From: a virus
Length of the DNA: 30,864 nt
Virus record (IMG/VR): IMGVR_UViG_3300030106_000356
Location: 2,705-33,568 of that record
Direction: 5' to 3' (one strand)
Shown here: positions 17,952 to 30,864 of the stretch, in pieces
Layout: each line of letters opens with the position of its first letter
How positions within the stretch are numbered: the first letter of the stretch is position 1
Made by a program: the position numbers and the translations under genes
The notes under the pieces: generated by a model
Seen by the model: the letters and a program-made list of their open reading frames with translations, nothing else
What the model was told of the DNA's origin: nothing
Databases searched by the model: none

Positions 17952-18170
17952 TTACTTTAAAACATTTAACTCTCTTTGAAAAAAGTTATGTAGGTCTCCC
18001 ATTTTATGCTTACCATTCCGGAGGATAGTTTTGATAATGTCTCTCTCATCAAGAGGGAATATCTCATCAACCATATCCTCTGGTAGCATACTAAACTCTG
18101 TAACTATATCATTGTTACGTGTAAGAAGCACTTTAAAACTTACTAAGTTTGCTTCATTTTTATTAACCAT
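17952..18170 (-). CDS. Small hypothetical protein after nrdB
   Basis: 72 aa, soluble, mixed charge (MVNKNEANLVSFKVLLTR, then EDMVDEIFPLDERDIIKT, KMGDLHNFFQREL). It overlaps the end of nrdB by 8 nt and is the last gene of the leftward arm; its TAA (17954-17952) touches the opposing TAG at 17949-17951. No motif recognised. It may be a small regulator or accessory protein of the nucleotide genes, but nothing proves it. Confidence 0.55.
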   Translation of the reverse strand: MVNKNEANLVSFKVLLTRNNDIVTEFSMLPEDMVDEIFPLDERDIIKTILRNGKHKMGDLHNFFQRELNVLK

Positions 18171-19146
18171 TATTAGGCTCCAATTGTGAAAAAGTTATTT
18201 TATCTTGTCTACCTCTTAGCCCAGCCTTCATGTAAGAAGTTGCTCGACCCTCAAAAAAGTTCTGATGTTCTACCCCCATTACTTCGTCTAGCCATTCTAA
18301 AGGATTCTCACGTTGGTCAAAATTGGTCTTGAGACCAAGCTGTAATAATCTTCTATCAGCTATGTATCTATTGTAAGCGTACATATCTTTCTTGGTAAGA
18401 CCTTCAAGGTCTCCCATATCAAACACTAAGTCTAGGAACTTGTCTTCTAGTTCTACCATCTGTCTACAGATTTCATATATTTCTTTTTTGAAATCATCTG
18501 TCCATATCTCTATGTTCTCTTGGATAAACTCTCTGAATAATTTAGTCATAGCTTCAACGTGCATAGATTCATCACGTATAGAGTAAGTAACTATCTGTCC
18601 CATACCTTTCATTTTACCAAACCTTGGAAAGTTTAACAAGATTGCAAAGCTACTAAACAACTGTAGTCCTTCAGTAAAGGCTGAGTAAACTGCTAAAGTT
18701 TTAGCAATACTTTTTTTATCTTTCTTTACAGTCTTAATATTGTGAACATAATCATGTTTGTCTGACATTTCTTCATACTCTGCAAAAGCTTTGTACTCTA
18801 TCTCAGGCATACCAACTGTATCAAGTAGTAAACTATAGGCATGTTGATGTATTGACTCCATGTTTGCAAACGAACCCATCATCATACGTGCTTCAGGTTT
18901 TCTAAAGATACGCATGTATCTATCAACATACCCTGCACCAACATCTACATCAGACTGAGTAAACAGTCTAAAGATTTGAGTAAGTAAATTCTTCTCTTTA
19001 TCAGATAGCTCTTGCCAATCTTTTACATCTGTGTGTAATGGTACTGACTCTGGCATCCAATGCATTTGGTTTTGTAAGACATAGTAGTCAAACATCCAAG
19101 GATTGTCGAATGGTTTGTAATAATCTCTTGTATCTAATAAGCTCAT
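18163..19146 (-). CDS. nrdB: Class I ribonucleotide reductase small (beta) subunit
   Basis: 327 aa. All metal ligands of the diiron beta subunit are present: D66 (TQSD), E97 and H100 (NMESIHQHAY), E159 (AFTEG), E193 and H196 (RDESMH). A tyrosine (Y104) sits four residues after the first histidine, as for E. coli Y122, which carries the radical. The spacing D66 to E97 (31 residues) equals E. coli D84 to E115. The protein generates the radical that NrdA uses to reduce ribonucleotides, supplying dNTPs for phage replication. The start overlaps the stop of the 59-aa gene by 4 nt (ATGA). It is separated from nrdA by three small or accessory genes. Length is slightly under E. coli NrdB (about 375 aa), as is common in phages. 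Confidence 0.95.
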   Translation of the reverse strand: MSLLDTRDYYKPFDNPWMFDYYVLQNQMHWMPESVPLHTDVKDWQELSDKEKNLLTQIFRLFTQSDVDVGAGYVDRYMRIFRKPEARMMMGSFANMESIHQHAYSLLLDTVGMPEIEYKAFAEYEEMSDKHDYVHNIKTVKKDKKSIAKTLAVYSAFTEGLQLFSSFAILLNFPRFGKMKGMGQIVTYSIRDESMHVEAMTKLFREFIQENIEIWTDDFKKEIYEICRQMVELEDKFLDLVFDMGDLEGLTKKDMYAYNRYIADRRLLQLGLKTNFDQRENPLEWLDEVMGVEHQNFFEGRATSYMKAGLRGRQDKITFSQLEPNNG

Positions 19147-19322
19147 GTTTTTTCCTTGTTAAATTTTTTAACTAAATATTTTAAATTATTGATTACATAT
19201 CCTGCGTAATCATCCGTTTTTGAGAATATACTTTTAGATTCGTCACAATAATCTAACCACATTCTAATTGTAAATCCTGAAAATTCAGGTTTAAATATAT
19301 GTTGAAATTCTGATTGTTTCAT
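19143..19322 (-). CDS. 59-aa hypothetical protein between oxygenase and nrdB
   Basis: A short open frame of 59 codons fills the space between the oxygenase and nrdB. It starts with ATG at 19322, preceded by a good ribosome site (AGGAG, 19328-19332) that overlaps the oxygenase stop. It ends with TGA sharing ATGA with the nrdB start. The product begins MKQSEFQHIFKPEFSGF, contains RMWLDYCDESKS and ends in a basic helix (LKYLVKKFNKEKT). Signal, coupling and gap-filling make it a convincing gene. It is too short for a family call; glutaredoxin or thioredoxin motifs are absent. Confidence 0.75.
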   Translation of the reverse strand: MKQSEFQHIFKPEFSGFTIRMWLDYCDESKSIFSKTDDYAGYVINNLKYLVKKFNKEKT

Positions 19323-19329
19323 ATTACTC

Positions 19330-19908
19330 CTATCGAAATGGTTTTATATCTTGTATCCATGTAACTAAAGACCATCGTTCTCCTTTAGTAACTGGGGTTA
19401 TTTTATGTAACACATAACTGGGAAACATTGTCATATCCCCAACTTCCATATGTATTGGTCTGTCTGCTCCTTGTTTTAACACAAGGTCTCCACCTTCACA
19501 ATCATTTGATAACAATATAGATACAGATATTTTTCTATTTGCATAAATACCATTTCCGATATCTGTATGCCAATCATAATGATGTCCTTTTTTGTAATGT
19601 AGTAATTGTAAATTATCAAAGATTCCAGCTATATCAAAATTAAAATGACTAATGTTACATTCTTTAACAGCATCAAAAATTATTTCATACAGATAATTAT
19701 ATTCAGAGGAAGCTGGTATAGGATATACATCTACTTCTCGCACAGAGTTAACTTTTGTTGACTTATTAGTATTACTATGTACTTTACCTGTCCACTTTTC
19801 AATATCATTAGCTATACTTTTAATTTGTGTGCATTCTGTTTGTGTTAAAAAATTATTTACATTAACAAAAGGTGAGGGTTTTTTATTTACTGGTTTTTCT
19901 ATGTACAT
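19330..19908 (-). CDS. 2-oxoglutarate/Fe(II)-dependent oxygenase (prolyl-4-hydroxylase-like)
   Basis: 192 aa. The double-stranded beta-helix motif is complete: H114 and D116 (YDWHTD), distal H168 (PSYVLHKITP), and R178 (KGERWSLVTW) that would bind 2-oxoglutarate. Strands such as ISVSILLSND and GGDLVL surround it. The overall pattern matches the prolyl hydroxylase / PKHD-type family found in many marine phages. It would use O2, Fe(II) and 2-oxoglutarate to hydroxylate a protein or other substrate; the substrate is unknown. It lies between nrdA and nrdB, overlaps the Zn-ribbon gene by 10 nt and has AAAGGA before the start. Confident for fold and cofactor use, not for role. Confidence 0.88.
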   Translation of the reverse strand: MYIEKPVNKKPSPFVNVNNFLTQTECTQIKSIANDIEKWTGKVHSNTNKSTKVNSVREVDVYPIPASSEYNYLYEIIFDAVKECNISHFNFDIAGIFDNLQLLHYKKGHHYDWHTDIGNGIYANRKISVSILLSNDCEGGDLVLKQGADRPIHMEVGDMTMFPSYVLHKITPVTKGERWSLVTWIQDIKPFR

Positions 19909-20054
19909 TTTTTTTCCTTTGGTAAATATACCATAACGAATGAGTCACATTTAGGACAACTTAAATTAGTTTCTATCATATAATCTTCATCTTCCTCTTC
20001 AATATCATGGTCTCCACCCCATATTAATTTTGTTCCACAATGCCAACAATTCAT
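19899..20054 (-). CDS. Small zinc-ribbon protein
   Basis: 51 aa from ATG at 20054, preceded by GAGGGA (20058-20063) inside the end of nrdA; an upstream in-frame ATG at 20084 would overlap nrdA by 29 nt. Two CxxC knuckles (MNCWHCGTKLIWGGDHD and LSCPKCDSF) are separated by an acidic stretch, a zinc-ribbon pattern. I recall similar MNCWHC...WGGDHD proteins across marine phages. A DNA- or RNA-binding or protein-docking role is possible. It follows nrdA by 1 nt and overlaps the oxygenase start by 10 nt. Confidence 0.75.
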   Translation of the reverse strand: MNCWHCGTKLIWGGDHDIEEEDEDYMIETNLSCPKCDSFVMVYLPKEKKCT

Positions 20055-20055
20055 A

Positions 20056-21951
20056 TTATCCCTCACATGCGATACATTCAGCATCGTCTAATTTTATACG
20101 TTGTACTTTAATATTTACATTCTCTGCATTACGAGCAGCATTAGTTCTAAAGTAATATAAAGATTTAAGTTTGTTCATACCATACCAGTGTACATCATTA
20201 ACATATTGCATATACTCATCGTGTACTTCCTGTGGCTCAGTAGCTTTTGGAAGTGTAAAGAATAAATTGACTGACTGTGCTTGGCAAATAAACTCTTGTC
20301 GTTTAGATGCATGTTCAATAATCCATATCTGATCTATTTCATTAGCAGTTTTAAACACTTCTTTTTCTTCATCAGTTAGTATATCAAGGTGTTGAACAGA
20401 GCCTTCATTACCTGCTATATCTTTCCATACTGCATTTAATTCTTCTTTTTTTAATCCTTTATCTTTTAATACTTCTTCTAAGTATTTATTTTTTACTTGG
20501 AATGAGCCTGATAAAGTTTTGTGCGTATAAACATTAGCCCTATATGGCTCAATCGAAGGAGATGTTCCACCACATATGATACTAGAAGAAGCATTAGGTG
20601 CAACAGCGAGAAGATGAGCATTACGTTTGCCACTACCACTGATATCAGGTGACTCACCACGTTCATCAGCAAGTCGTTCAGTTGCTCTAACTGAATGTTT
20701 CTTAATGTGTTTAAACGCTTTGTAATTGAATCCCGTAGCAAATATACCTTCGAAAGGAATATTGTTTGCCTGTAAGTACGAATGAAAGCCCATTGCTCCG
20801 AGACCCAACGACCTTTCTCGGTAAGCTGAGTACGCAGATTTAGTAAAGCCTTCTTTACCGGGCTTGATATGTTTTTGAAATCTTTTAAAGTTTGCATTAT
20901 ACTCTCCTAAGTTATTTGTGTCAACAGCGTTATCAATATAATGTTGAAGAACGTTGTCAAGCATAGTAATTAAATCATCAATAAAGAGAGGATTTTCACT
21001 CCACTCATCAAAGTATTCTAAGTTTACTGAAGACAAACAACACACTGCTGTTCGTTCTTCGTTAGTAGGTAAAGTAATCTCAGAACAAAGATTGCTCTGT
21101 TTGATTTCTAATCCTAAATCTTTTTGTTCTTTAGATAACGCTTCGTTACATGTATCTATATTAATCATGTATGGCTCACCTGTTTCAGCTCTTGCGTTTA
21201 TTATTTGCCACCATAAATCTCTAGCATTAACAATCTTAGTAGGCTCATTAGTCTTAGGGTCAATCAATCTAAAGTCTGCATCTTCTTCAACAGCTTTTAA
21301 AAACTCATTGGTAATATTAATACCGTTATGAAGATTAAGATTCTTACGATTTATATCACCACCAGATTCTTTACGCATGTTAATAAACTCTTCAATCTCA
21401 GGATGAGATATGTCCATATATGCAGCGTAAGAGCCACGTCTAGTGGTACCTTGATTAAAGGCTAACATCTGTGAATCAACTACATGGATGAAAGGAATTG
21501 AACCAGTAGACTTACTACCGTGAGTAGTAGAAATACCGTTACTCCTAATATCTCCCCAATATCCACCAATACCTCCACCTGAACTAGCCAACCAAATATT
21601 CTCGTCATAATGATCTGATAAACCACTGCGACTATCAGGTACATAATTGAGAAAACAGCTAATAGGAAGACCACGACTTGTTCCCCCGTTACTAAGTATA
21701 GGAGTGCTAAACATGAACCAACAATTGGAACTGTAGTGATAAAGCCTCTGAGCCAATTCAAAATCCGTGTGCCCTTTGTAGGTCGCCCCGAAGACCGAGG
21801 CACGGGCAAATGCTTCTTGTGCATGTGTTTCATTCTCCCATAAATATCTGTCTTGTAATGTGTCAAGACTAAATTTGTCTAATAGTTTTTCATTACTATA
21901 ATTAATTTTAATACCTAAGTATTCTTTTATTCCTACTTTATCTTCAACCAT
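20056..21951 (-). CDS. nrdA: Class I ribonucleotide reductase large (alpha) subunit
   Basis: 631 aa from ATG at 21951, which has AAGGAA upstream; an in-frame ATG at 21978 would overlap the previous gene by 35 nt. The N-terminal ATP-cone regulatory domain of E. coli NrdA is missing. Catalytic elements are present: a cysteine in LPISCFL, the active-site N-x-C-x-E (SNLCSE), the partner cysteine in AVCCLSS, the radical-path tyrosine pair in LKSLYYFRT, and a C-terminal redox pair in ECIACEG. It reduces ribonucleoside diphosphates using the radical from NrdB and electrons from thioredoxin or glutaredoxin, probably from the host. The short N-terminus suggests loss of dATP activity control, as in many phage enzymes. 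Confidence 0.95.
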   Translation of the reverse strand: MVEDKVGIKEYLGIKINYSNEKLLDKFSLDTLQDRYLWENETHAQEAFARASVFGATYKGHTDFELAQRLYHYSSNCWFMFSTPILSNGGTSRGLPISCFLNYVPDSRSGLSDHYDENIWLASSGGGIGGYWGDIRSNGISTTHGSKSTGSIPFIHVVDSQMLAFNQGTTRRGSYAAYMDISHPEIEEFINMRKESGGDINRKNLNLHNGINITNEFLKAVEEDADFRLIDPKTNEPTKIVNARDLWWQIINARAETGEPYMINIDTCNEALSKEQKDLGLEIKQSNLCSEITLPTNEERTAVCCLSSVNLEYFDEWSENPLFIDDLITMLDNVLQHYIDNAVDTNNLGEYNANFKRFQKHIKPGKEGFTKSAYSAYRERSLGLGAMGFHSYLQANNIPFEGIFATGFNYKAFKHIKKHSVRATERLADERGESPDISGSGKRNAHLLAVAPNASSSIICGGTSPSIEPYRANVYTHKTLSGSFQVKNKYLEEVLKDKGLKKEELNAVWKDIAGNEGSVQHLDILTDEEKEVFKTANEIDQIWIIEHASKRQEFICQAQSVNLFFTLPKATEPQEVHDEYMQYVNDVHWYGMNKLKSLYYFRTNAARNAENVNIKVQRIKLDDAECIACEG

Positions 21952-22219
21952 TGTTAAATTCCTTATCATGTATATCAAGCATAATTATACCATAATGTAA
22001 TAATTTAAGCAAGTCTTTTTTATTTTTTCCATTTTTATTTCCATAACGTTTAGCATATTTTAAAATATTACCCATACAAAAACCTTCGCCATGTCCGGAA
22101 TCAATGATAACATCAGTGGCTTGATACTTGTCTGAAGCATAATGCTCACCATATGTCTCATCAATATATTCTTTTAATTCAATTATATTTCTTCGTTCTT
22201 GAAATTTATATTCAATCAT
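21944..22219 (-). CDS. DUF3310 / SaV-like small protein
   Basis: 91 aa. The core GFCMGNILKYAKRYGNKNGKN followed by KKDLLKLLHYGIIMLD matches the FCxGNxxKYxxRxGxK...DLxKxxxYL pattern of the DUF3310 (SaV-like) family, which also occurs in the T7 gp1.7 nucleotide kinase. Here the protein is short and stands alone, so kinase activity is not implied; a role in nucleotide metabolism fits its place just before nrdA. There is a GGAG ribosome site, an 8-nt overlap with the upstream gene and an 8-nt overlap with the nrdA start. Family call moderate. Confidence 0.6.
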   Translation of the reverse strand: MIEYKFQERRNIIELKEYIDETYGEHYASDKYQATDVIIDSGHGEGFCMGNILKYAKRYGNKNGKNKKDLLKLLHYGIIMLDIHDKEFNNG

Positions 22220-22460
22220 TTATAGTCTCCAACGTTATGTTAGGATTACGTTTTACTTTTTTGTAAAACCATTTTAAAGTATAAGCACTCATTCTAAATT
22301 GACCACCTGCAAAAATATGTGTTTGCGTAGGTAAGAACTCATCTAGGTTTTGTCTCTTGATTCTGTTGGGGTCTTCCCCATCAGGAACCATAGTTCTAAT
22401 CCATTCAATGAGCAAGTCTTCAGCTTTTCTTCTTAAGTTCTTTGATCTTTTACCACTCAT
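22212..22460 (-). CDS. Conserved small phage protein, function unknown
   Basis: 82 aa. A basic N-terminal helix (MSGKRSKNLRRKAEDLLIEW) is followed by DEFLPTQTHIFAGGQFRMSA and a basic C-terminal helix (YTLKWFYKKVKRNPN). I recall proteins of this shape (MSGKR...LRRKA..., THxxAG) next to nucleotide or exonuclease genes in marine phages, without known function. It overlaps the exonuclease gene upstream by 4 nt and the DUF3310 gene downstream by 8 nt. The positive charge suggests nucleic-acid contact; that is inference. Confidence 0.6.
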   Translation of the reverse strand: MSGKRSKNLRRKAEDLLIEWIRTMVPDGEDPNRIKRQNLDEFLPTQTHIFAGGQFRMSAYTLKWFYKKVKRNPNITLETIND

Positions 22461-23329
22461 GTTTGAGTTACCTCTATTACTTTAGGTGGTTTAGGAGTTT
22501 GAGTTAAGTATTTTAATCCATTCGAGTACTTAAATACTCTTAATCCCTTACCTTCATTGGCATCTTTATGACATTCAAACTTATGTCTACAATATACACA
22601 CTCTCTAGGTAGCTGCATATTACCAGACTTACCATCGGGAACTGGGTTGTAGCACAGATCAGGTGGTGTTGCTAACTTAACAGCTTTCTTTATGTCTGTT
22701 ATTTTTTTCTTTATGTTAGGCTTATCAAAATTATCTGGTCTGTATAAAGCTAACTCTCCTGACTCTTTATTAAGGGCTAAGAAACCTCCTTTGTTAGTAC
22801 CTTCGGCTGCTTCATATCCAGCAAGTTGAGCCATATACCCAAACAGATCATTCTCAGCTAGTGTACCATCTTTAAATTTCTTAAAAGCATAACCAGAAGC
22901 TGTCTTAATATCAACAACCTCACCATCAATAACACAGTCCATATGTCCTTTGATACCAGATACCTTTACTTCTTTTTGTTCGCTAGTAACTTTATGTCCA
23001 GATAGTTTAATAAGAAATAAAACTATCTCTTCAAGTAAATGTCCATACAAAAATTTAATAAACAAAGAAGGTGGCATCTTCTCAGCAGTGTCTTCCGACT
23101 TCATATCAAACCAAAGTTGACGTGACTTTCTACCTATGTTAGACATACGTAAAGTAGCTTTACCTCTTGGTTCAGGATGAGACCACTTGTAAAGTATATC
23201 TTTCATCGACTCACCGAACTGATCTATAGTCTCTGGGTCTAGGTCAATATGCTTACCATCAGCAAGTACACTTATCTTATTATATATATCTGAGACCAAT
23301 GTGTCAAGAGTTTTTTTAGATTTAGTCAT
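22457..23329 (-). CDS. RecB/Cas4-like PD-(D/E)XK exonuclease with cysteine cluster
   Basis: 290 aa. The nuclease motifs are in order: E100/E101 (GHLLEE), D131 (GHMDCVID), D140-x-K142 (VVDIKTAS) and the QxxxY element (Q168-Y172, AQLAGY). Near the C-terminus, C244, C247 and C253 (ECVYCRHKFEC) form the C-x2-C-x5-C pattern of Cas4/AddB-type Fe-S nucleases; C226 is nearby. The usual first cluster cysteine before the nuclease core is absent (SNIGRKSRQLWF). It probably degrades host DNA or processes recombination ends, the role T7 gives to gp6. Starts 2 nt after the GIY-YIG gene. Nuclease fold is solid; the Fe-S cluster is a possibility. Confidence 0.83.
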   Translation of the reverse strand: MTKSKKTLDTLVSDIYNKISVLADGKHIDLDPETIDQFGESMKDILYKWSHPEPRGKATLRMSNIGRKSRQLWFDMKSEDTAEKMPPSLFIKFLYGHLLEEIVLFLIKLSGHKVTSEQKEVKVSGIKGHMDCVIDGEVVDIKTASGYAFKKFKDGTLAENDLFGYMAQLAGYEAAEGTNKGGFLALNKESGELALYRPDNFDKPNIKKKITDIKKAVKLATPPDLCYNPVPDGKSGNMQLPRECVYCRHKFECHKDANEGKGLRVFKYSNGLKYLTQTPKPPKVIEVTQT

Positions 23330-23331
23330 GT

Positions 23332-23865
23332 TTAAACAATCTCCATGTTTTTTATTATATCTTTAGCTATTTTTAAGTCTAACTTAAACCATTCACCTTT
23401 ACGTGTTTTAGCTTTTTTTCCGCATAAAGTATGAGCTGTTATTTCCGCAGTACGTCTATCATTAAAATGTTTTTTAAACTTTAATTTAAAATCTCTTAAT
23501 GGACTAGACGTTTGATATCCATTACATCTATCATCAGAATCAATTGCCATGCCAATTTTTATCCATCCTTTCCAAGCAGGGTTAGTTATAATATATACTT
23601 CTCCTTCCGTAGATGTTTCGTAATTCTGTAAAGAACTAAACGCAGCATCATCAAAACTTTTATATCTTCCTGCTTTATATAATGGATGAGATTGTGGTAT
23701 GTATTTACTATTAACAAACATTCTTCTCTCATTTTTTCCTACATGAGAGGACACTCTACGTCTTCCATCTGCTTGACCTACGTACCACCACTCACCATCT
23801 TCAAATCTTTTATTTGCTACTTTAGTGTGTTTCACTCCAATTACTCCCTGCTTTGTATTCGCCAT
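23332..23865 (-). CDS. GIY-YIG nuclease-like protein (T5orf172/MUG113 type)
   Basis: 177 aa from ATG at 23865; a GTG at 23835 has AGGGAG at good spacing and would cut the overlap with the polymerase gene from 44 to 14 nt, so the start is uncertain. Residues about 88-165 form the domain: GEVYIITN, KIGMA, the arginine R113 (DDRCNGYQT), E141 (RRTAEITAH) and GEWFKL. The N-terminal half (WWYVGQADGRRRVSSHVG, MFVNSKYIPQSHPL) is basic and could bind DNA. It could be a free-standing homing-type endonuclease or a phage DNA-processing enzyme. Its insertion between polymerase and exonuclease genes would suit a mobile gene, but no proof is seen. Confidence 0.72.
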   Translation of the reverse strand: MANTKQGVIGVKHTKVANKRFEDGEWWYVGQADGRRRVSSHVGKNERRMFVNSKYIPQSHPLYKAGRYKSFDDAAFSSLQNYETSTEGEVYIITNPAWKGWIKIGMAIDSDDRCNGYQTSSPLRDFKLKFKKHFNDRRTAEITAHTLCGKKAKTRKGEWFKLDLKIAKDIIKNMEIV

Positions 23866-25552
23866 CTAACGGACAACGAAGATTAAAATTTTTACCTGCT
23901 TCTATAATACTTTTAACTGCCATCTCTCCTACAAAATCTGCTTGAGATTCTTTCACTTCTATCTGCCACTCATCGTGTATGTTAGCTACAAACTTATAAT
24001 TAATAGTATTAAGTTTTAATATACTATCTAAGTTTACTAAAGCTTTTTTCATAACGATTGCACCTGCTCCCTGCAATAAAGTATTTAAAGCAGCATGAGT
24101 ATTTCTTATATAAAGTTTTCTTCCGTCTAATCCTTTAAGGAATTTTTTTCCTGCTGCTCTCGTAACTCTATCTCTAAGAGATTTAAATGCAGGGTTATTA
24201 TTGAAGAAATATTCTCTAGCTCTCTGACCATCTTTCGTGTTTCCTTCAACCACCTTGCCAAGCTTTTGATCTCCTGCACCGTACATGAGGGCATAGATGA
24301 ATGTCTTTGCCTGATTTCTTGATTTAAGTTGTGCAGCTTTTTGATTAGCGGTGTGTATGTCTCCATCTAATATCTCCTTAATATAATCTTTATCATCCAT
24401 ATAGTGTGCTAACATTCTAAGTTCTAGACCACTAGCATCTACACCTAATAAAACATTGCCATCATCTACAATCCAACAAGACCTACATTCTTTTCCGTAA
24501 GGGCTATGGACTGAAGGAACTTGAGCCATGTTAGGATTTCTATGTGTCATTCGACCAGTGATAGCTCCATTAGGAATAACAAATCCGTGAACTCTGCCAT
24601 CTTCTTTGACAGCAGAAACCCAAGAGTCTACCTGTGCAATCCGTTTTTGTATTAACAAAAAATCTGCAATTAACTTAGCTTCACGTATATGTGTAACCTC
24701 CGATAAAGTTTTTTCGTCTACAATAGGTTGACCTGTTGGTGTAAATCTTTCAGGTTTCCATCCAAAATCAATTAAATATTCACCTATCTGTTTACGACTA
24801 CCAAGATTAAAGTCTTGTAAAGTCTGTCTCATAAACGGTTCGTAGTTGGAAGTGTTTAAACATCTTTCATATTCATCATCAGTAAGACCACGCTTAGATA
24901 GTTGACCATCTTTTTTTACATAAGGTTTAACTAATTTATCATCTACCCATTTAGGTTTAAAAGTATCGTGAACTTCATCTTCTATTTGTTGTTTCTTTTC
25001 TCTTAACTGTGCAAGTAAAAGTAAAGCAGATTCCATATTAAACTTGAATCCATTAACTTCTTGTTGCTTAATAATTTTAGCAACTGATTGTTCTAAATTA
25101 ATGCATTCTTTACTAAATCCTTTAGATTCATTTCTTAAATTTTTATATACTAAAGTATTTAAAGTTACATCACGAACACAATAGTCTAACATTTCACGAG
25201 AATAATTTAGATAGTCTTCAAATTCAATCTTAGCTAATCCTAATCTAAAGCCCCAACTTTCTAAACTATGTCCGCCATCTCTGTTAGGATTAAATAGTCT
25301 TGATAAAACAAGAGTATCAATAACTTCTTTACTACTTAGATCGACTCCACCAAACTTTTCTACCATAGGTATATCAAATCCTATAATGTTATGACCAATA
25401 AGTCTGTCTGCTGTAGTTAAAAACTTATATCCTTCTTCTAATTTATTAGGAGGAAATTTAAATATCTCTCCTGAATCAGGATTTTGAGCAACAATACACC
25501 AAACTTTTGTGGCTTGTAGATCATCTGTTTCAATATCAAATACTAAATCCAT
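23822..25552 (-). CDS. T7-like family A DNA polymerase with 3'-5' exonuclease domain
   Basis: 576 aa. The exonuclease domain opens with D6-x-E8 (FDIETDD). The polymerase domain has motif A (VDASGLELRM, D372), motif B (RNQAKTFIYALMYGAG, R412, K416, Y420, Y424) and motif C (NIHDEW, H526-D527-E528). Y420 aligns with T7 Y526 and E. coli F762. The end, LDGEYKAGSNWSETH, matches the T7-type C-terminus. It is shorter than T7 gp5 (704 aa), so the thioredoxin-binding insertion is probably missing. It replicates the phage genome with the helicase and ssDNA-binding proteins encoded upstream. Starts 2 nt after the primase-helicase gene; its end overlaps the GIY-YIG gene. Confidence 0.95.
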   Translation of the reverse strand: MDLVFDIETDDLQATKVWCIVAQNPDSGEIFKFPPNKLEEGYKFLTTADRLIGHNIIGFDIPMVEKFGGVDLSSKEVIDTLVLSRLFNPNRDGGHSLESWGFRLGLAKIEFEDYLNYSREMLDYCVRDVTLNTLVYKNLRNESKGFSKECINLEQSVAKIIKQQEVNGFKFNMESALLLLAQLREKKQQIEDEVHDTFKPKWVDDKLVKPYVKKDGQLSKRGLTDDEYERCLNTSNYEPFMRQTLQDFNLGSRKQIGEYLIDFGWKPERFTPTGQPIVDEKTLSEVTHIREAKLIADFLLIQKRIAQVDSWVSAVKEDGRVHGFVIPNGAITGRMTHRNPNMAQVPSVHSPYGKECRSCWIVDDGNVLLGVDASGLELRMLAHYMDDKDYIKEILDGDIHTANQKAAQLKSRNQAKTFIYALMYGAGDQKLGKVVEGNTKDGQRAREYFFNNNPAFKSLRDRVTRAAGKKFLKGLDGRKLYIRNTHAALNTLLQGAGAIVMKKALVNLDSILKLNTINYKFVANIHDEWQIEVKESQADFVGEMAVKSIIEAGKNFNLRCPLDGEYKAGSNWSETH

Positions 25553-25554
25553 AA

Positions 25555-27234
25555 TTAAAATGCCTCATCTGCTGACGGGTCGAACTCTATATCTTCATCT
25601 GTTAGTTCTGTTAATCTACCTGTTTCTCCATTGTAAATAACTCTAGCTGCCATGCCTACATCACCTGTGTACCTTGACTTAAGAACTCTAAGTCTTGTAG
25701 TTCTAGCTTCATCAAAGTCATCTGATTGTTGATTACGTTCTAATGCAATAACACAATCTGATAACTGACCGATACTATTCGACCCACGTAAATGAGATAA
25801 GCTTACCTCTATACCATTCTCATGTCCTTTGTTACCATCCACTCTACGTAAATGAGATACTAGAATAATACCTGCTCCTGTTTCTTCTACTAAACTTCTA
25901 AGTCTAGTCATAATAGAATCAATTGCTCGTCTCTCATCGCCTTCATGGACAGCACTGACTAGCATATGTAAGTGATCTACAACCACCCACTTACAGTCAC
26001 ATCCAATAATCATAAAGCGTAGCTTGGTAAAGATATCATCAATATCATTAGTCCCAAAGTGTGAATGAACCCATACTCTGTTTTTATTCTCTCCATCATA
26101 TAAGATATCAAACATCTTATCAAGTTCTTCTTTAGAAAACTTCTCACGTTCTTGGTCAATGTATAATCTAGCATTTGCTTCTATAGATAAGATACCATCA
26201 ATGGTACGTCTCCAGTCTTCTTCTAATGCAATGATACCTACATTGTCTGTAGTTTGTTTAACTAACCAATGTTCTAGTTCTCTAGTCACACTAGATTTAC
26301 CAAGTCCTGTACCACCGGTAAGAGTTACAAGTTCACCCTGTCGTAAGCCATACAGCTTCTTATTTAAGCCTTCATAGGGGTAGGGTATACTTTGTTTTTT
26401 CTCACGATTGTGGAACTTCTCACGCTGTTCTGTGACGTTTATTACACCTGAGGGTGTATAAACTTTACTAGCCCACCAAGCTTCAACAAAATCTTTGTGT
26501 CTATTGTCACGTAACATTTCGTTAGGGTCTTTGAACCCGTTGGGAAGTGTGAGTATCCTAGCCTTGCCGGGTTTAAACAACCTTGCAACTTTAACTGATG
26601 CATCCTTACCTGCCTTATCATTATCAAAGGCAACGATCACGTTTTCAAAGTCATCAAAGAACTCTAAACTTTCTTTAATGTCTCTTACTGCACCCTGTGC
26701 ACCACGCTTAATAGATACTACTGCCCACTTACTACCAAGTAGTTCGTAAGCTGCCATTGCATCGCACTCCCCTTCAGTTATAGTGACGTACTTGCCACCC
26801 TTAAATAACTGTTGACCAAACAATCCTGTTTCATTATAAGAACCATTGACAAAGAAATCTTTCTTTTCAACATTTCTAACTTTGGTAGCAGAAATCTCAT
26901 GTCCATTATAATATGGATACATGTGTTTAGTAACCTTACCTTGTAGGTTATGAACTACTTTTACACCATACTTTGTAGCTGTACCTTGAGAGATACGTCT
27001 GTCAGTTAGTGCAGAAAAAGTACCCGTATCTAAATTATCAGGTTGTTTAAACGTTGTTTGATTTGTTGTTGTTTGTTGTACCATATCTTTTCCTTTACAT
27101 GCTTGTTCATAGTTAGGCATAAATTCACCACAACTAAAACACTTTGCCGAGCCATCTGCATTTACTCCTACAGCATCGCTACTATTACAAAGTGGGCATG
27201 GTTGATGTAACTTATCCCAAGTTTTGTTTTCCAT
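25555..27234 (-). CDS. T7 gp4-like primase-helicase
   Basis: 559 aa from ATG at 27234, with GAGGG ahead; a GTG at 27246 in frame is less likely. N-terminal primase part: zinc knuckles C13-C16 and C32-C35 (CPLC, CFSC), a TOPRIM domain with E154 (TEGECD) and the DND motif at 204-206 (VAFDND). C-terminal DnaB/T7-type helicase part: Walker A at 307-314 (GGTGLGKS), Walker B aspartate near 420 (VVVDHLHML) and the H motif (ILVSHLRR). The acidic tail ends in phenylalanine (DPSADEAF), like T7 gp4, whose tail docks on the polymerase. It makes primers and unwinds the fork. Confidence 0.95.
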   Translation of the reverse strand: MENKTWDKLHQPCPLCNSSDAVGVNADGSAKCFSCGEFMPNYEQACKGKDMVQQTTTNQTTFKQPDNLDTGTFSALTDRRISQGTATKYGVKVVHNLQGKVTKHMYPYYNGHEISATKVRNVEKKDFFVNGSYNETGLFGQQLFKGGKYVTITEGECDAMAAYELLGSKWAVVSIKRGAQGAVRDIKESLEFFDDFENVIVAFDNDKAGKDASVKVARLFKPGKARILTLPNGFKDPNEMLRDNRHKDFVEAWWASKVYTPSGVINVTEQREKFHNREKKQSIPYPYEGLNKKLYGLRQGELVTLTGGTGLGKSSVTRELEHWLVKQTTDNVGIIALEEDWRRTIDGILSIEANARLYIDQEREKFSKEELDKMFDILYDGENKNRVWVHSHFGTNDIDDIFTKLRFMIIGCDCKWVVVDHLHMLVSAVHEGDERRAIDSIMTRLRSLVEETGAGIILVSHLRRVDGNKGHENGIEVSLSHLRGSNSIGQLSDCVIALERNQQSDDFDEARTTRLRVLKSRYTGDVGMAARVIYNGETGRLTELTDEDIEFDPSADEAF

Positions 27235-27255
27235 ATTAGCCCTCACTAATGGTTA

Positions 27256-27558
27256 TTATTTATCTGATTTTTTTACTACCTTTGATTCATCCTCAATAGT
27301 GTCTGGGTCATCGCCAACAAACTGCCCTTTTTCATTACGAGCAGATTCTGTTTCAACGATTGCCTCGTCTCTATCTTTGAGTAACTCTTCTAAGTTAGCT
27401 CGATGTGTACGACTTGCAAAGTCTAAAGCCTCTATGATAACTTGTAAGTTACCAACTTTCTGTACAATAACAGTAGCTTCTTGCTTTATCTTATCCTCAC
27501 TAATGTTGTTGACATCAAACGAGGTTGTACCATCATCATTATTAATAGTAATAATCAT
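27256..27558 (-). CDS. Small acidic protein between ssDNA-binding protein and primase-helicase
   Basis: 100 aa. The N-terminus is probably beta (MIITINNDDGTTSFDVN), the middle helical (KIKQEATVIVQKVGNLQVII, NLEELLKDRDEAIVETESAR), and the tail hydrophilic (DDPDTIEDESKVVKKSDK). Genes here are spaced 2 and 21 nt apart. It sits in the core of the replication block, so a replisome accessory role is plausible. I recognise no family. Confidence 0.6.
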   Translation of the reverse strand: MIITINNDDGTTSFDVNNISEDKIKQEATVIVQKVGNLQVIIEALDFASRTHRANLEELLKDRDEAIVETESARNEKGQFVGDDPDTIEDESKVVKKSDK

Positions 27559-27560
27559 AA

Positions 27561-27971
27561 TTAAAACTCCTCGTTATCTGCATCAGGTTCAGAATATTCT
27601 ACTAGCTTATTAACTTTAACAGCTATTAACTCACCGAATGTTCCGAACTTACTTGAGTAAGGTTTAAACTTAACCTTAACCTCAGAGCCATTACCAACTG
27701 ATACATCCATTGGATTTCCATCTGTATCTACTAACTTAGGTGCAGAATTTACTCTACCTGCAACCTCAACTTTTCTTCTAAAAGCAAATGCAGGTTCTTC
27801 AAATTTAGGATTTCCAAATTTATCCTTTACTTGAGATAGTCCTATACCCTCTAACCTGTCGGCTGTTTCTTGGTCTGTTAAGACTGTGATCTCATACTTA
27901 GGGTCATTAAAGTTTGCGTTAGGTGTGGTGACTTTAGCCCACATTGATTTACCTTCTATATACTCATACAT
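27561..27971 (-). CDS. ssDNA-binding protein (T7 gp2.5-like in layout)
   Basis: 136 aa. The body looks like an OB-type beta protein (MWAKVTTPNANFNDPKYEIT, AFAFRRKVEVAGRVNSAPKL, VKVKFKPYSSKFGTFGEL) and the tail is acidic with a terminal phenylalanine (EPDADNEEF), as in T7 gp2.5, where that tail contacts the polymerase and helicase. It is the first gene of the replication run, with a strong ribosome site (GGAGG, 27978-27982) and its own sigma70-like promoter at 28004-28032. Binding of single strands during replication and recombination is the expected role. The assignment rests on layout, tail and position rather than on a conserved motif. Confidence 0.72.
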   Translation of the reverse strand: MYEYIEGKSMWAKVTTPNANFNDPKYEITVLTDQETADRLEGIGLSQVKDKFGNPKFEEPAFAFRRKVEVAGRVNSAPKLVDTDGNPMDVSVGNGSEVKVKFKPYSSKFGTFGELIAVKVNKLVEYSEPDADNEEF

Positions 27972-28003
27972 AAGTTTCCTCCGTTGTTGTATTAAGTGTG
28001 TGC

Positions 28004-28032
28004 ATTATAACATACTTTAATAAAAAAGTAAA
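28004..28032 (-). promoter_or_regulatory. Sigma70-like promoter upstream of the ssDNA-binding gene
   Basis: On the - strand, TTTACT (28032-28027), a 17-nt spacer ending in ATGT, then TATAAT (28009-28004). The -35 matches 4 of 6 bases of TTGACA; the -10 is perfect and extended (TGT before it). Transcription would begin near 27997, about 26 nt before the ATG at 27971, with GGAGG in between. It should drive the replication genes. Confidence 0.75.
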
Positions 28033-28168
28033 GTAGTTTTTAAAATTATTTTTGATAGTGTTTAAACGGTGTCGGTTCTTATTGCACAAAGCACCGAAAA
28101 CTTGCTCGACTAGAGTCGAATACCACAGACTAAAGGAAGTTATATTTGAGGGCTGTCCAGTAGTATGC
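28033..28168 (-). other. Non-coding stretch with hairpins ahead of the replication promoter
   Basis: No convincing gene. On the - strand there is a short hairpin at 28120-28105 (TCGAC, loop TCTA, GTCGA). Two mutually exclusive pairings lie around 28097-28067: CGGTG with CACCG, or TCGGT with ACCGA. GTTTAAAC follows at 28060-28067. There is no U-run after a stem, so it is not a typical terminator, and I could not fold it as a tRNA. It may be a structured RNA, a processed leader or a protein-binding site. Confidence 0.4.
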
Positions 28169-28372
28169 TTAATCAAGAGTTCTTATCTCTCTTAATATCT
28201 CCTCCCAAAAAGTAAGAGGTGTTTTTTCCAATGTGATTTTAAAAGTATCATCTAACTTTTCAACAACGTGCCCAATATTTAAGTTGTTTAGTTTTAGATA
28301 CTCACCGAATCTTCTATACTCATCACGAGTTAGAATCTCAGTATCATATTGTTCTCTTTCTTTTAGATACAT
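28169..28372 (-). CDS. Small hypothetical early protein, probably leaderless
   Basis: 67 aa, charged and helical (MYLKEREQYDTEILTRDEYR, NIGHVVEKLDDTFKITLEK, FWEEILREIRTLD). The ATG at 28372 lies about 2 nt after the expected start point of a consensus promoter at 28381-28409, and no Shine-Dalgarno precedes it. There is no other in-frame ATG. Function not recognised. Confidence 0.65.
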   Translation of the reverse strand: MYLKEREQYDTEILTRDEYRRFGEYLKLNNLNIGHVVEKLDDTFKITLEKTPLTFWEEILREIRTLD

Positions 28373-28380
28373 AAGGCGAT

Positions 28381-28409
28381 ATTATAACATGGATACAAAC
28401 TCTTGTCAA
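28381..28409 (-). promoter_or_regulatory. Consensus sigma70 promoter
   Basis: On the - strand, TTGACA (28409-28404), exactly 17 nt, then TATAAT (28386-28381), with TGT just before the -10. Both hexamers are perfect. The start point is expected near 28374-28375, right before the ATG at 28372. It lies in the 46-bp gap between two early genes. Confidence 0.88.
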
Positions 28410-28418
28410 TACTTTAAT

Positions 28419-28625
28419 TTAAAAATATTTGTTTAACATCTTAAGTTTATCTTCGTAGTCTGCAATCTTACCAAGTTCTCCCTCAATACTTTCTAAGGTA
28501 TCAGGGTGTTCAGCAACACCTACAGGATTAGTAATTAATATCATAGCATTAGCAATGTGTCTATCTATTAAACCTTGAAAGTGATTTTGTAATCCTTTAA
28601 TAACAAACTCTTTATTTATATACAT
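28419..28625 (-). CDS. Small conserved marine-phage protein (MYINKEF type)
   Basis: 68 aa from ATG at 28625; an in-frame ATG at 28655 would overlap the upstream gene by 28 nt. GGAGG within the end of the upstream gene (28635-28639) serves as ribosome site at a somewhat long distance. The product MYINKEFVIKGLQNHFQGLI, then NPVGVAEHPDTLESIEGEL and a closing helix (IADYEDKLKMLNKYF), resembles a small protein I recall from many cyanophage and pelagiphage genomes. No function is known to me. Confidence 0.65.
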   Translation of the reverse strand: MYINKEFVIKGLQNHFQGLIDRHIANAMILITNPVGVAEHPDTLESIEGELGKIADYEDKLKMLNKYF

Positions 28626-28627
28626 TT

Positions 28628-29125
28628 TTAAGCAACCTCCTGTGTTGTCCACCAAGTAGGTTTAGCTCTATTGCGTTCCCATTTGGCATAGTGTTTTTCG
28701 TTAATGCAGTAATCACGATAAGCAATAATAGCATCCTCATTCTTATACTCCTCAGGCATAGCCTGTGCTAGTGGTGTCATGCTTGTATGTGTAATGTTGT
28801 CAGGCATCTTACTAAGTGGGTCTTCTAGCTTGACAACACTTGAATGTTTTCTACCATACCTGTATTCATACTCTAAGCCTAGTGCTAAGAAGTGTCGATA
28901 CAACCACGAATAGTTAGAACTAGATTCTCTTGCCCATATAGTGCAAGGATGATTCCAGTATGCACGTTTGTAAAGTCCTACACTATCTGCATACTCATCA
29001 CCATCTAGTTCTCGGTGTGCTGTGCATAACATCTGTGCTGTTTCAAGTGGCATCTTTACTAGCATCTTATCAGGCTGTGCTTCTGCTGATATGATAGGAC
29101 ACTCATCAAAATAAAATATGTTCAT
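28628..29125 (-). CDS. Conserved marine-phage protein, function unknown
   Basis: 165 aa. Features are MNIFYFDECP, then KMLVKMPLETAQMLCTAHRE, NHPCTIWARESSSNYSWLYR, LEYEYRYGRKHSS, and AQAMPEEYKNEDAIIAYRDY. I recall this family (ETAQML, NHPC, WAR, NYxWL, YRYGKxH) in cyanophages and other marine phages as an uncharacterised conserved protein. The concentration of conserved His, Cys, Trp, Tyr and Arg suggests an enzyme or nucleic-acid-binding fold, but I do not know the reaction. The start overlaps the TGA of the basic 49-aa gene (ATGA). Between early genes on the - strand. Confidence 0.7.
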   Translation of the reverse strand: MNIFYFDECPIISAEAQPDKMLVKMPLETAQMLCTAHRELDGDEYADSVGLYKRAYWNHPCTIWARESSSNYSWLYRHFLALGLEYEYRYGRKHSSVVKLEDPLSKMPDNITHTSMTPLAQAMPEEYKNEDAIIAYRDYCINEKHYAKWERNRAKPTWWTTQEVA

Positions 29126-29271
29126 TTACCTTGCCCTCTATATTTTTTGAAGTTGCTTTTCTTATTCTTGTTCATGGTAGAGAAAGCAACATTGCCTCTA
29201 CCTTGACTTGTCTTTTTACCTCTGCCTTGTGTTGCAGATACATGAGCAGATTTATTCCACGTTTTCGCCAT
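29122..29271 (-). CDS. Small basic protein (MAKTWNKS type)
   Basis: 49 aa, too short for most gene callers. It starts with ATG at 29271, overlaps its upstream neighbour by 20 nt and shares ATGA with the next gene. The product MAKTWNKSAHVSATQGRGKK continues TSQGRGNVAFSTMNKNKK and ends FKKYRGQGK. It is strongly basic, glycine-rich and without membrane span. I recall very similar short proteins in marine phages. Nucleic-acid binding is likely from charge; role unknown. Confidence 0.72.
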   Translation of the reverse strand: MAKTWNKSAHVSATQGRGKKTSQGRGNVAFSTMNKNKKSNFKKYRGQGK

Positions 29272-29464
29272 ATCTATTCTCCACTACTTTTGTTCTGCGT
29301 TTGTCTCTGTACTCTGTAACACTTCGACCATCTGCATAGTCAACAGTTTGTTGATACCATAACCCATCTTTATATCTAGTATCAATAGCTACAATTGATT
29401 TAGCTTTCTTTTCTAACTCAAGCTTTTGTCTTTGCTGTTCAACAGCTTCACTATGTTGTGTCAT
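29252..29464 (-). CDS. Small hypothetical early protein
   Basis: 70 aa. A coiled N-terminal helix (HSEAVEQQRQKLELEKKAKS) is followed by a beta-rich part (VAIDTRYKDGLWYQQTVDYA, RSVTEYRDKRRTKVVENR). It overlaps the genes on both sides (14 and 20 nt), as is typical for this arm. No function recognised. Confidence 0.58.
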   Translation of the reverse strand: MTQHSEAVEQQRQKLELEKKAKSIVAIDTRYKDGLWYQQTVDYADGRSVTEYRDKRRTKVVENRYGENVE

Positions 29465-29633
29465 TTTTATCCTCCTTTATTATCTCACCACAAACAAAAC
29501 ATTTTCTTGGTATGTCTAGTAATTTACAAGCCATCTCATCTTTCGGCATATCCCAACAGTATGTATGGGGATGAAACATTTCAGGTGGCAATGGAAATCC
29601 TATATGATTCTCAGGGTCAATGTCCTGTTTCAT
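29451..29633 (-). CDS. Small hypothetical early protein with a Cys pair
   Basis: 60 aa. It has a proline- and histidine-rich part (GFPLPPEMFHPHTYCWDMPK) and a single CxxC (RKCFVCGEIIKED), which could bind a metal with the histidines or with C26. It begins 7 nt after its upstream neighbour without a clear ribosome site and overlaps the next gene by 14 nt. Function unknown. Confidence 0.55.
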   Translation of the reverse strand: MKQDIDPENHIGFPLPPEMFHPHTYCWDMPKDEMACKLLDIPRKCFVCGEIIKEDKNDTT

Positions 29634-29640
29634 TTTATTA

Positions 29641-29886
29641 TTATACAGCCTTTGTAAAGTTACTAGAACTTATAATCTGTTTAAACGATACCCCTAATAG
29701 TTTATGGATTCTGTCCTCAAACAAACTAACGTGCCTAAGTATTTCTTCTTGTTCATTATGTGTAAAGTTTTCAAAGTCTTTATCCATATGAACATTAGGA
29801 TCATCAAACAATCTCATTAGGTAATCTGATACTTGATGTTTAGCATAAGTCTTAGCTGTTACTTTTTGATTTTGATATTGAATCAT
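29641..29886 (-). CDS. Small hypothetical early protein
   Basis: 81 aa from ATG at 29886, with GGAGGA just upstream; an in-frame ATG at 29910 lacks this. The product (MIQYQNQKVTAKTYAKHQVS, DYLMRLFDDPNVHMDKDFEN, HNEQEEILRHVSLFEDRIHK) is soluble and helical. It overlaps the preceding 51-aa frame by 35 nt. No family recognised. Confidence 0.6.
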   Translation of the reverse strand: MIQYQNQKVTAKTYAKHQVSDYLMRLFDDPNVHMDKDFENFTHNEQEEILRHVSLFEDRIHKLLGVSFKQIISSSNFTKAV

Positions 29887-30007
29887 ATTCTTCCTCCATT
29901 TTTTTAACATCCTTATCTACTAGATAATCAAACTCATTAGGTCTTGTACCCTTTAAGGGTTGATTATCATAATGATTATCTATTAGTTCTTTAATATAAT
30001 CTTTCAA
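29852..30007 (-). CDS. Candidate 51-aa early gene with TTG start
   Basis: An open frame of 51 codons starts at TTG 30007, with AGGAG 7 nt upstream, and ends at TAA 29854-29852. The product (first residue M) continues KDYIKELIDNHYDNQPLKGT, then RPNEFDYLVDKDVKKMEEEY and a Ser/Lys tail. It fills the gap between the early promoter at 30078-30106 and the next gene. The ribosome site and gap-filling support it; the TTG start and 35-nt overlap lower confidence. Confidence 0.5.
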   Translation of the reverse strand: MKDYIKELIDNHYDNQPLKGTRPNEFDYLVDKDVKKMEEEYDSISKSKSNS

Positions 30008-30077
30008 TTCTTTTCTCCTGTTATTTAAATAATAATTAATAAATATATTTTGTTATATGCTTTGTTAATTTTAATAC

Positions 30078-30106
30078 AGTATAACATACTTTTAATTAAA
30101 AAGCAA
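30078..30106 (-). promoter_or_regulatory. Sigma70-like promoter in early region
   Basis: On the - strand, TTGCTT (30106-30101), 17 nt ending in AGTATGT, then TATACT (30083-30078). The spacer end and extended -10 are nearly the same as in the promoter at 28004-28032. Transcription would begin near 30071, about 64 nt before the TTG gene. The rest of the 30008-30112 gap is AT-rich with no gene. Confidence 0.68.
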
Positions 30107-30112
30107 ATCATG

Positions 30113-30358
30113 TTACAAATAAAAATCAACAACGTCATCAATCGACACGTTGATAGCTTTTGAAATAAAGTCTTCAACGTAATCATAGACTCTATCCTCT
30201 GTTACTTCTTCAGGACTATCACCTGCTAACACATCTTCATAAATTATATTTACAAATTTCTCACGTTGATTGGTTGATAACCTTGCAAGGATTTCAAAGT
30301 CTCTTGCACATACCTCATCAACAATCTGATAAATGCTTGGCATATTAGCTATACTCAT
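30113..30358 (-). CDS. Small acidic hypothetical early protein
   Basis: 81 aa, acidic and helical (MSIANMPSIYQIVDEVCARD, STNQREKFVNIIYEDVLAGD, EDRVYDYVEDFISKAINVSI). It overlaps the upstream gene by 14 nt. Small acidic early proteins of phages often bind host enzymes, but nothing here shows a target. Confidence 0.6.
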   Translation of the reverse strand: MSIANMPSIYQIVDEVCARDFEILARLSTNQREKFVNIIYEDVLAGDSPEEVTEDRVYDYVEDFISKAINVSIDDVVDFYL

Positions 30359-30671
30359 TGTTAACCTCCTTTATTATTTGGTCAAGAGCCTCATCAAAAA
30401 AGATTGGTTCTTTACCTAATTGTTTTCTAATTACATAAGCAACAGCATCTCTGCCCTGCTCATCGTGAAGGTGTTTAAACAGTCCCTCACTTAATCCTGC
30501 ATCTCCCATTGCAATATAGATATCATCTCTTGTATCGCAATAAGTATTATACACTCTACTCATATCATACCTCCTCGTTTTAAAATTAGGTGCTAGTTTT
30601 ACAGGTCTAGCAACTGTGTCCTTCTTTACTCGGACAAATTTGTAGTTAGTGCATGGTGGTTTAGTTCTCAT
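30345..30671 (-). CDS. Small hypothetical early protein, start uncertain
   Basis: 108 aa from ATG at 30671, with AAGGAT ahead. The first 36 residues are basic (YKFVRVKKDTVARPVKLAPN). A second in-frame ATG at 30563 (MSRVYNTYCDTRDDIY) has a far better ribosome site (GAGGAGG, 30570-30576), so a 72-aa form may be the main or an additional product. The C-terminal part (GDAGLSEGLFKHLHDEQGRD, KEPIFFDEALDQIIKEVNNE) is soluble. No family recognised. Confidence 0.55.
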   Translation of the reverse strand: MRTKPPCTNYKFVRVKKDTVARPVKLAPNFKTRRYDMSRVYNTYCDTRDDIYIAMGDAGLSEGLFKHLHDEQGRDAVAYVIRKQLGKEPIFFDEALDQIIKEVNNEYS

Positions 30672-30775
30672 TTACTTTCATCCTTAACCTTGTCTCTTGT
30701 CTACTCTAATTTAATAGAGGGCAAGGATTTTACAAAGGCTCACTCCTAACTACAAAATCTATTTAACCATACGAA

Positions 30776-30819
30776 TGTTACAGTTGTGTTACAGTTATGT
30801 AACAATTGTGTAACAATTA
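30776..30819. repeat. Four tandem 11-bp repeats with dyad symmetry
   Basis: On the + strand: TGTTACAGTTG, TGTTACAGTTA, TGTAACAATTG, TGTAACAATTA. The 11-bp period is close to one helical turn. TGTTACA and TGTAACA are reverse complements, so units 1-2 mirror units 3-4 around 30797/30798. The surrounding gap 30672-30816 has no gene that I can support. An operator or iteron-like protein-binding site fits. Confidence 0.85.
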
Positions 30820-30842
30820 TACGTACTCCTCATAAGTTTCAA
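30816..30842 (-). promoter_or_regulatory. Weak promoter candidate beside the 11-bp repeats
   Basis: On the - strand, TTGAAA (30842-30837), only 15 nt, then TATAAT (30821-30816). The -10 is perfect, the spacer is short and no TG extension is present. Its expected start would fall inside the repeat array, so the repeats could act as operator. Confidence 0.35.
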
Positions 30843-30864
30843 CATCAGCCTTAATATTATTATC
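30817..30864 (-). CDS. 3' end of a gene entering from the right edge (partial)
   Basis: From the right edge a frame reads DNNIKADVETYEEYV and stops at TAA 30819-30817. The acidic, hydrophilic composition is protein-like. Another frame is also open for about 22 codons but gives an unlikely hydrophobic/basic mix. The stop lies inside the last 11-bp repeat. Confidence 0.4.
   Translation of the reverse strand, partial: DNNIKADVETYEEYV

Follow-up and report, generated by a model that had tools for sequence, protein, structure and literature searches.

A predicted Pho box at an early promoter of a marine phage and its counterpart ahead of SAR11 pst genes

Introduction

Which protein reads four TGTWACA heptamers spaced exactly 11 bp apart in a gene-free gap upstream of the early genes of a marine virus, and to what effect? 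The array lies in the window analyzed here, a stretch of 30,864 nucleotides corresponding to positions 2705–33568 of the 34,686-base IMG/VR record IMGVR_UViG_3300030106_000356. A sequence-only reading had described it as a helically phased site near an early promoter that could be bound cooperatively by a protein, and had suggested either a dimeric repressor or replication iterons. The general description held in our analysis, whereas the repressor and the iterons found no support.

The OmpR/PhoB family of response regulators as a whole binds tandem repeats of 10–11 bp, and SAR11 bacteria are the most abundant bacteria of the sea. The binding site of PhoB consists of two 11-bp direct repeats (PMC3978041). 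We consider it likely, with a probability of about 0.8, that the array represents a Pho box, at which host PhoB would bind and activate transcription. The coordinates of the array and of its neighboring features are given in Table 1.

Table 1 Features of the window around and downstream of the predicted Pho box.
Feature	Positions	Strand	Basis or remark
Pho-box-like operator made up of four TGTWACA units (period 11 bp)	30776..30815	minus	predicted from sequence
Spacer TTCGTATGG, 9 bp, last heptamer to -10; ends TGG (extended -10 type TGn)	30767..30775	minus	alignment with relatives
Inferred -10 element TTAAAT	30761..30766	minus	position from alignment with relatives
Conserved leader TTTTGTAGTTAGGAGTGAGCC...CTAACTACAAA at inferred transcript start	30639..30757	minus	conserved in relatives; candidate structured RNA
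First sizeable ORF downstream of promoter, 108 aa	30345..30671	minus	no family match
Remaining co-directional early/replication genes, small early ORFs included	18163..30358	minus	
Pyrimidine-dimer glycosylase-like gene	28628-29125	minus	
Gp2.5-like SSB	27561-27971	minus	
Primase-helicase (T7-type)	25555-27246	minus	
DNA polymerase (family A)	23822-25552	minus	
Cas4-type exonuclease	22457-23329	minus	
RNR large subunit	20056-21978	minus	
RNR small subunit	18163-19146	minus	

Results

Structure and conservation of the array

The heptamers occupy positions 30776–30782 and 30787–30793 (TGTTACA) as well as 30798–30804 and 30809–30815 (TGTAACA), all exact and at the 11-bp period previously noted. 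On the minus strand the array reads TGTTACA-caat-TGTTACA-taac-TGTAACA-caac-TGTAACA and thus consists, as does a Pho box, of 11-bp direct repeats with a 7-bp core of the TGTNA type and an AT-rich 4 bp. It is indeed intergenic, being located between two minus-strand ORFs, with the stop codon of the upstream ORF (30817–30819) one base away and the start of the next ORF at 30671. A mirror axis had been placed at 30797/30798. For the heptamers, the axis instead falls at 30795/30796; their symmetry is exact, whereas the 4-nt spacers are not mirrored. Because the core is nearly symmetric, with TGTAACA the reverse complement of TGTTACA, the dyad is incidental; the order of the W positions in other arrays is TTTA, TTTT, TAAA, or AAAA, and the dyad is not constant.

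The chance of four in-register heptamers, computed from a frequency of ~2.8e-4 per position, is ~2e-10 per window for one fixed spacing and ~4e-9 with 20 spacings allowed, or on the order of 1e-9 overall. The window as a whole contains 11 TGTWACA heptamers compared with 8.7 expected, and at least 11 were present in 28 of 100 shuffles; single copies, such as that at 30111, are therefore noise, as the sequence-only reading had supposed for that copy. A search of the rest of the 34,686-base record, which that reading had proposed, yielded no second array.

Loss of repeat number or spacing in close relatives had been named as evidence against a functional site. We collected relatives by means of an unrelated gene located 1.9–3.0 kb downstream of the array and found the four units and the period of 11 bp to be retained. 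Among 36 loci with enough flanking sequence, 10 contained a four-unit array at period 11, compared with no more than one at each of the other periods between 8 and 15. The conserved block comprises the array and the following 50 bp, whereas the preceding gene and the segment that follows vary among phages.

Predicted promoter beside the array

The array had been thought to overlap the -10 and start region of a candidate promoter. A consensus scan of positions 29900–30864 detected no sigma-70 promoter overlapping it, and the promoter that we infer is located 9 bp away on the minus strand, where the array is followed by TTCGTATGG-TTAAAT-aga-TTTTGTAGTTAGGAGTGAGCC. Scoring of -10 elements alone was ambiguous, in that offsets of 4, 9, and 14 gave similar values and other AT-rich hexamers nearby scored alike; the choice of offset 9 is based instead on alignment with relatives that possess a sigma-70-type promoter. 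At 9 bp past the last heptamer, relatives with an array carry TAGAAT, TAGGAT, TATGAT, TAAGGT, or TACAAT, at the position where the sigma-70-type relatives have TATAAT or TATATT. The same 9-bp spacing in host promoters is suggestive only, with pstC showing ties at offsets 2 and 9 and pstS a peak at 20 (= 9 + 11).

The leader that begins at the inferred transcript start (TTTTGTAG...) is also conserved in relatives without an array. Several of these relatives have an ordinary promoter in the same place ahead of it, such as TTGACA-18-TATAAT (L008) or TTGACA-17-TATATT (L044). When IMG/VR was scanned for the core of the leader, blind to the array, 99 stretches were recovered; together with the loci of earlier searches, these provided 72 distinct upstream regions. 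Arrays were present in 16 of these regions and sigma-70-like promoters in 13 (several of them TTGACA-18-TATAAT at the same place), with the remaining 43 showing no clear promoter. Seven or eight of the 16 arrays make use of TGTCACA, with the central C of the classical PhoB box; E. coli PhoB has a preference for TGTCA. Because the same leader is preceded in relatives by either an array with its putative -10 element 9 bp away or a plain sigma-70 promoter, the array appears to stand in for the -35 element, a placement also expected of a Pho box.

With regard to the leader itself, its core, GGAGTGAGCCTTTGTAAAA ... GGTTAAGGATAAAAGTAAATGAGnACTAnACCACCATGCAC, surrounds a variable hairpin and has a long closing stem, in which some compensatory changes were apparent (GTAGTTAG/CTAACTAC against GTGGCTAG/CTAGCCAC in L053, L058, and L062). 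The leader is a candidate for a new structured phage RNA, and a scan of positions 29000–30864 against Rfam gave no match at E values up to 1. The variable hairpins are common to otherwise different phages, resembling exchangeable cassettes, and in L412–L480 the leader is often preceded not by a promoter but by apparent short hairpin modules or genes (43 of the 72 upstream regions). Separately, an AT-rich stretch, TATAACATACTTT..AT.AAAAAG.AAA, is present at both 28003–28032 and 30077–30107 with 87% identity over 30 bp; it may be another recurring element of the early region, either promoter-like or regulatory.

The phage and its probable host

The closest isolates, on the basis of the polymerase (51%) and the primase (47%), are the Pelagibacter phages HTVC104P, HTVC103P, and HTVC115P. 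In the window, as in HTVC104P and HTVC115P, an early block and replication genes are combined with structural genes in the opposite orientation; these two isolates, the nearest by polymerase, both infect Pelagibacter HTCC7211. No tRNA was found in the window. The end of the window, searched against phage records for nearly identical sequence, gave no match, and comparison of the array consensus with isolate phages gave weak, unrelated matches only. Scanning of HTVC008M, HTVC104P, and HTVC115P revealed no array. The nearest isolates thus lacking the array, we predicted the host from relatedness and GC content only, and these point to SAR11, or a similar low-GC marine alphaproteobacterium, as the likely host.

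A search for a phage DNA-binding gene had also been proposed. No transcription factor was recognized among the early ORFs with Pfam or PHROGs, and no Trans_reg_C (OmpR/PhoB-type) domain was detected in nine phage records, comprising that of the window and eight others with arrays, which may be fragments.

Counterparts of the array in bacteria

In SAR11 upstream regions of pstS that were not selected on the pattern, three 11-bp units were found in all 26 distinct sequences, and no other period was apparent. The best three-unit match in these 26 regions had 3.4 mismatches at period 11, compared with 8.3 for shuffled sequences and 7.0–8.2 for other periods. The exact two-unit pattern had matches in 23 of 197 SAR11-family genomes; apart from the site in L288, the intergenic ones were located 18–24 bp before pstC (seven sites) or 60 bp before pstS (one). 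The L288 array lies between two ORFs facing each other, has no adjoining pst gene, and was set aside as evidence; a site present in nine SAR11 genomes (TGTAACAAAGCTGTAACA) and the set L346–L349 are inside coding ORFs and were not counted. The SAR11 boxes consist mostly of three imperfect units. The promoter-proximal pair of the phage array (30776–30793) has the same orientation as the pstC boxes, whereas the W positions of the two distal units are oriented oppositely.

PhoB (TIGR02154) scored over the cut-off in 117 and PstS was present in 118 of the 197 SAR11-family genomes, so that the putative host group both encodes PhoB and carries the motif before pst genes. Among 61 proteins tested that adjoin three-unit arrays in other bacteria, five were PHO4 transporters, four were PstS-type binding proteins, two were phosphate-selective porins, and two were OmpR-type regulators.

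A second phage lineage

A three-unit scan detected more than 120 viral stretches, with 66 loci belonging to a single T4-like cluster, for which the nearest isolate identified was HTVC008M. Each of 50 distinct arrays from these phages was flanked on one side only by a promoter, in most cases TTTACA-17-TATAAT. Distances from the -35 element were 14–15 bp in 31 arrays, 24–25 bp in 14, 35–36 bp in three, and 19 bp in two. The first three classes thus account for 48 of 50 arrays, whereas random stretches match 2% of the time. An activator contacting RNA polymerase from upstream would require distances that change by one helical turn, as these do. The genes downstream include those for a VWA/peptidase protein and its CobS-like ATPase partner, polynucleotide kinase, and small proteins of unknown function.

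One 120-kb record of this cluster contained at least four separate array sites (six matches, some overlapping), and the reversed control pattern gave none. Several separate sites are present within single T4-like records in L197 and L380–L395 (records G198–G205). The presence of multiple sites in one record suggests a phage Pho regulon, of which complete genomes could provide the full list.

Discussion

Among the alternatives to host PhoB, that which best survives is another host response regulator of the OmpR/PhoB family with the same 11-bp tandem geometry. Tandem repeats of 10–11 bp are characteristic of the family, and SAR11 genomes encode several regulators related to TIGR02154. We nevertheless regard this alternative as unlikely, given that the motif lies ahead of pstS in each of the 26 distinct SAR11 sequences and ahead of pstC in seven genomes and that it is found next to phosphate genes in other phyla. 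A regulator encoded by the phage itself, whether a repressor or an activator that binds cooperatively to control the early promoter, appears somewhat less probable still. Phage early promoters are often controlled in this manner, and most of the small early ORFs have no family match and may include a small DNA-binding protein. Against this possibility, the same site occurs in two unrelated phage lineages and matches host pst promoters, and no OmpR-type domain was present in the nine phage records; for a repressor in particular, the location of the T4-like arrays upstream of the -35 element fits activation rather than repression.

That the repeats are iterons, at which an initiator protein would open the DNA, we consider very improbable. 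Short, helically spaced repeats in a gene-free gap with replication genes downstream would suit an origin, but several dispersed arrays occur in one T4-like record, the T4-like arrays always lie beside promoters, plain sigma-70 promoters replace arrays in relatives, and no Rep-type initiator family was recognized among the ORFs tested. The dimeric repressor and the iterons suggested previously are thus both disfavored by an array that occupies the -35 position in place of the -35 element of constitutive promoters in relatives, that in other phages lies upstream of many promoters in a phased arrangement, and that matches the SAR11 pst repeats. A functionless chance repeat or slippage product, despite the simple, AT-rich heptamers, can be effectively dismissed in view of the expectation of ~4e-9, the conservation of the array while flanking genes change, the differing spacers that speak against simple duplication, the match to SAR11 pstS, the promoter placement in T4-like phages, and the sigma-70 swap in relatives.

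With the array read as a Pho box, its four in-phase units would be occupied side by side by phosphorylated PhoB on one face of the DNA. In the phage of the window, bound PhoB would do the work of the absent -35 element, drawing the sigma-70 RNA polymerase of the host to a weak extended -10 sequence, TGG-TTAAAT, at a distance of 9 bp; in the T4-like phages, it would act from a site farther upstream. The minus-strand transcript would comprise the conserved leader RNA followed by the early genes, and may extend into the replication genes that lie past them. The promoter would in this way be coupled to the phosphate status of the host, or to a state of phosphate stress that infection itself can cause. 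Binding by PhoB, activation rather than repression, and a SAR11-like host are each inferred from sequence comparison, and our confidence in the actual host and in the ecological reading is lower than that in the Pho box. Weighing against the Pho-box reading are the 43 of 72 leader upstream regions with neither an array nor a recognizable promoter, the similar scores of offsets 4, 9, and 14, the lack of arrays in the nearest isolates, the several OmpR-family regulators of SAR11, and the opposite W orientation of the two distal units.

A broader proposal, for which we see about even odds, is that control of core promoters by host PhoB arose independently in two unrelated groups of marine phages, probably phages of SAR11, and that many of these promoters serve genes with no recognized phosphate role. 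Related phages would then differ in whether the promoter at a shared start site is gated by PhoB or constitutive, with phosphate gating being a swappable niche trait in some of the most abundant viruses of the ocean. Should core genes of SAR11 phages be under host phosphate control, as shown for cyanophages, the infection program of these phages would follow directly from the phosphate state of seawater. The reading can be tested, as the box, the corresponding host boxes, and natural relatives lacking an array have all been identified.

Control of phage genes by host PhoB is already known in cyanophages. Host PhoB was shown by gel shift to bind promoters of cyanophage S-PM2d, including those of the DNA polymerase gene and uvsX, and the same study cautioned against relying on Pho boxes predicted in phage genomes, some predicted boxes having remained unbound, and called for tests in other virus-host pairs (PMC10976474). 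The literature that we searched, which covers only part of the field, contained no report of Pho boxes in pelagiphages. The cyanophage promoters resemble the present one in that core or metabolic phage genes come under the phosphate-starvation regulator of the host, as does, according to what is cited there, the pstS promoter of P-SSM2 (PMC10976474). They differ in belonging to another host phylum and in having weaker boxes with 8-bp PyTTAAPyPyT/A repeats, and their control was established by gel shift and transcriptomics (PMC10976474), whereas ours is deduced from comparative sequence analysis. For the pelagiphage HTVC027P, one report describes increased host pstABCS, phoB, and phoU transcripts on infection (PMC12753301), which likewise links pelagiphage infection to the SAR11 phosphate response but concerns induction of host genes rather than a phage Pho box. 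A close likeness is also seen to the boxes of SAR11 pstS and pstC promoters and to E. coli-type PhoB boxes, which share with the array 11-bp direct repeats, a TGTNA core, and a position upstream of the -10 element. Differences from the SAR11 boxes are the four perfect rather than mostly three imperfect units, the opposite W orientation of the two promoter-distal units, and the predicted control of phage genes without a recognized phosphate function. With its four perfect repeats, the array is a far clearer candidate Pho box than are the published phage examples with which it was compared.
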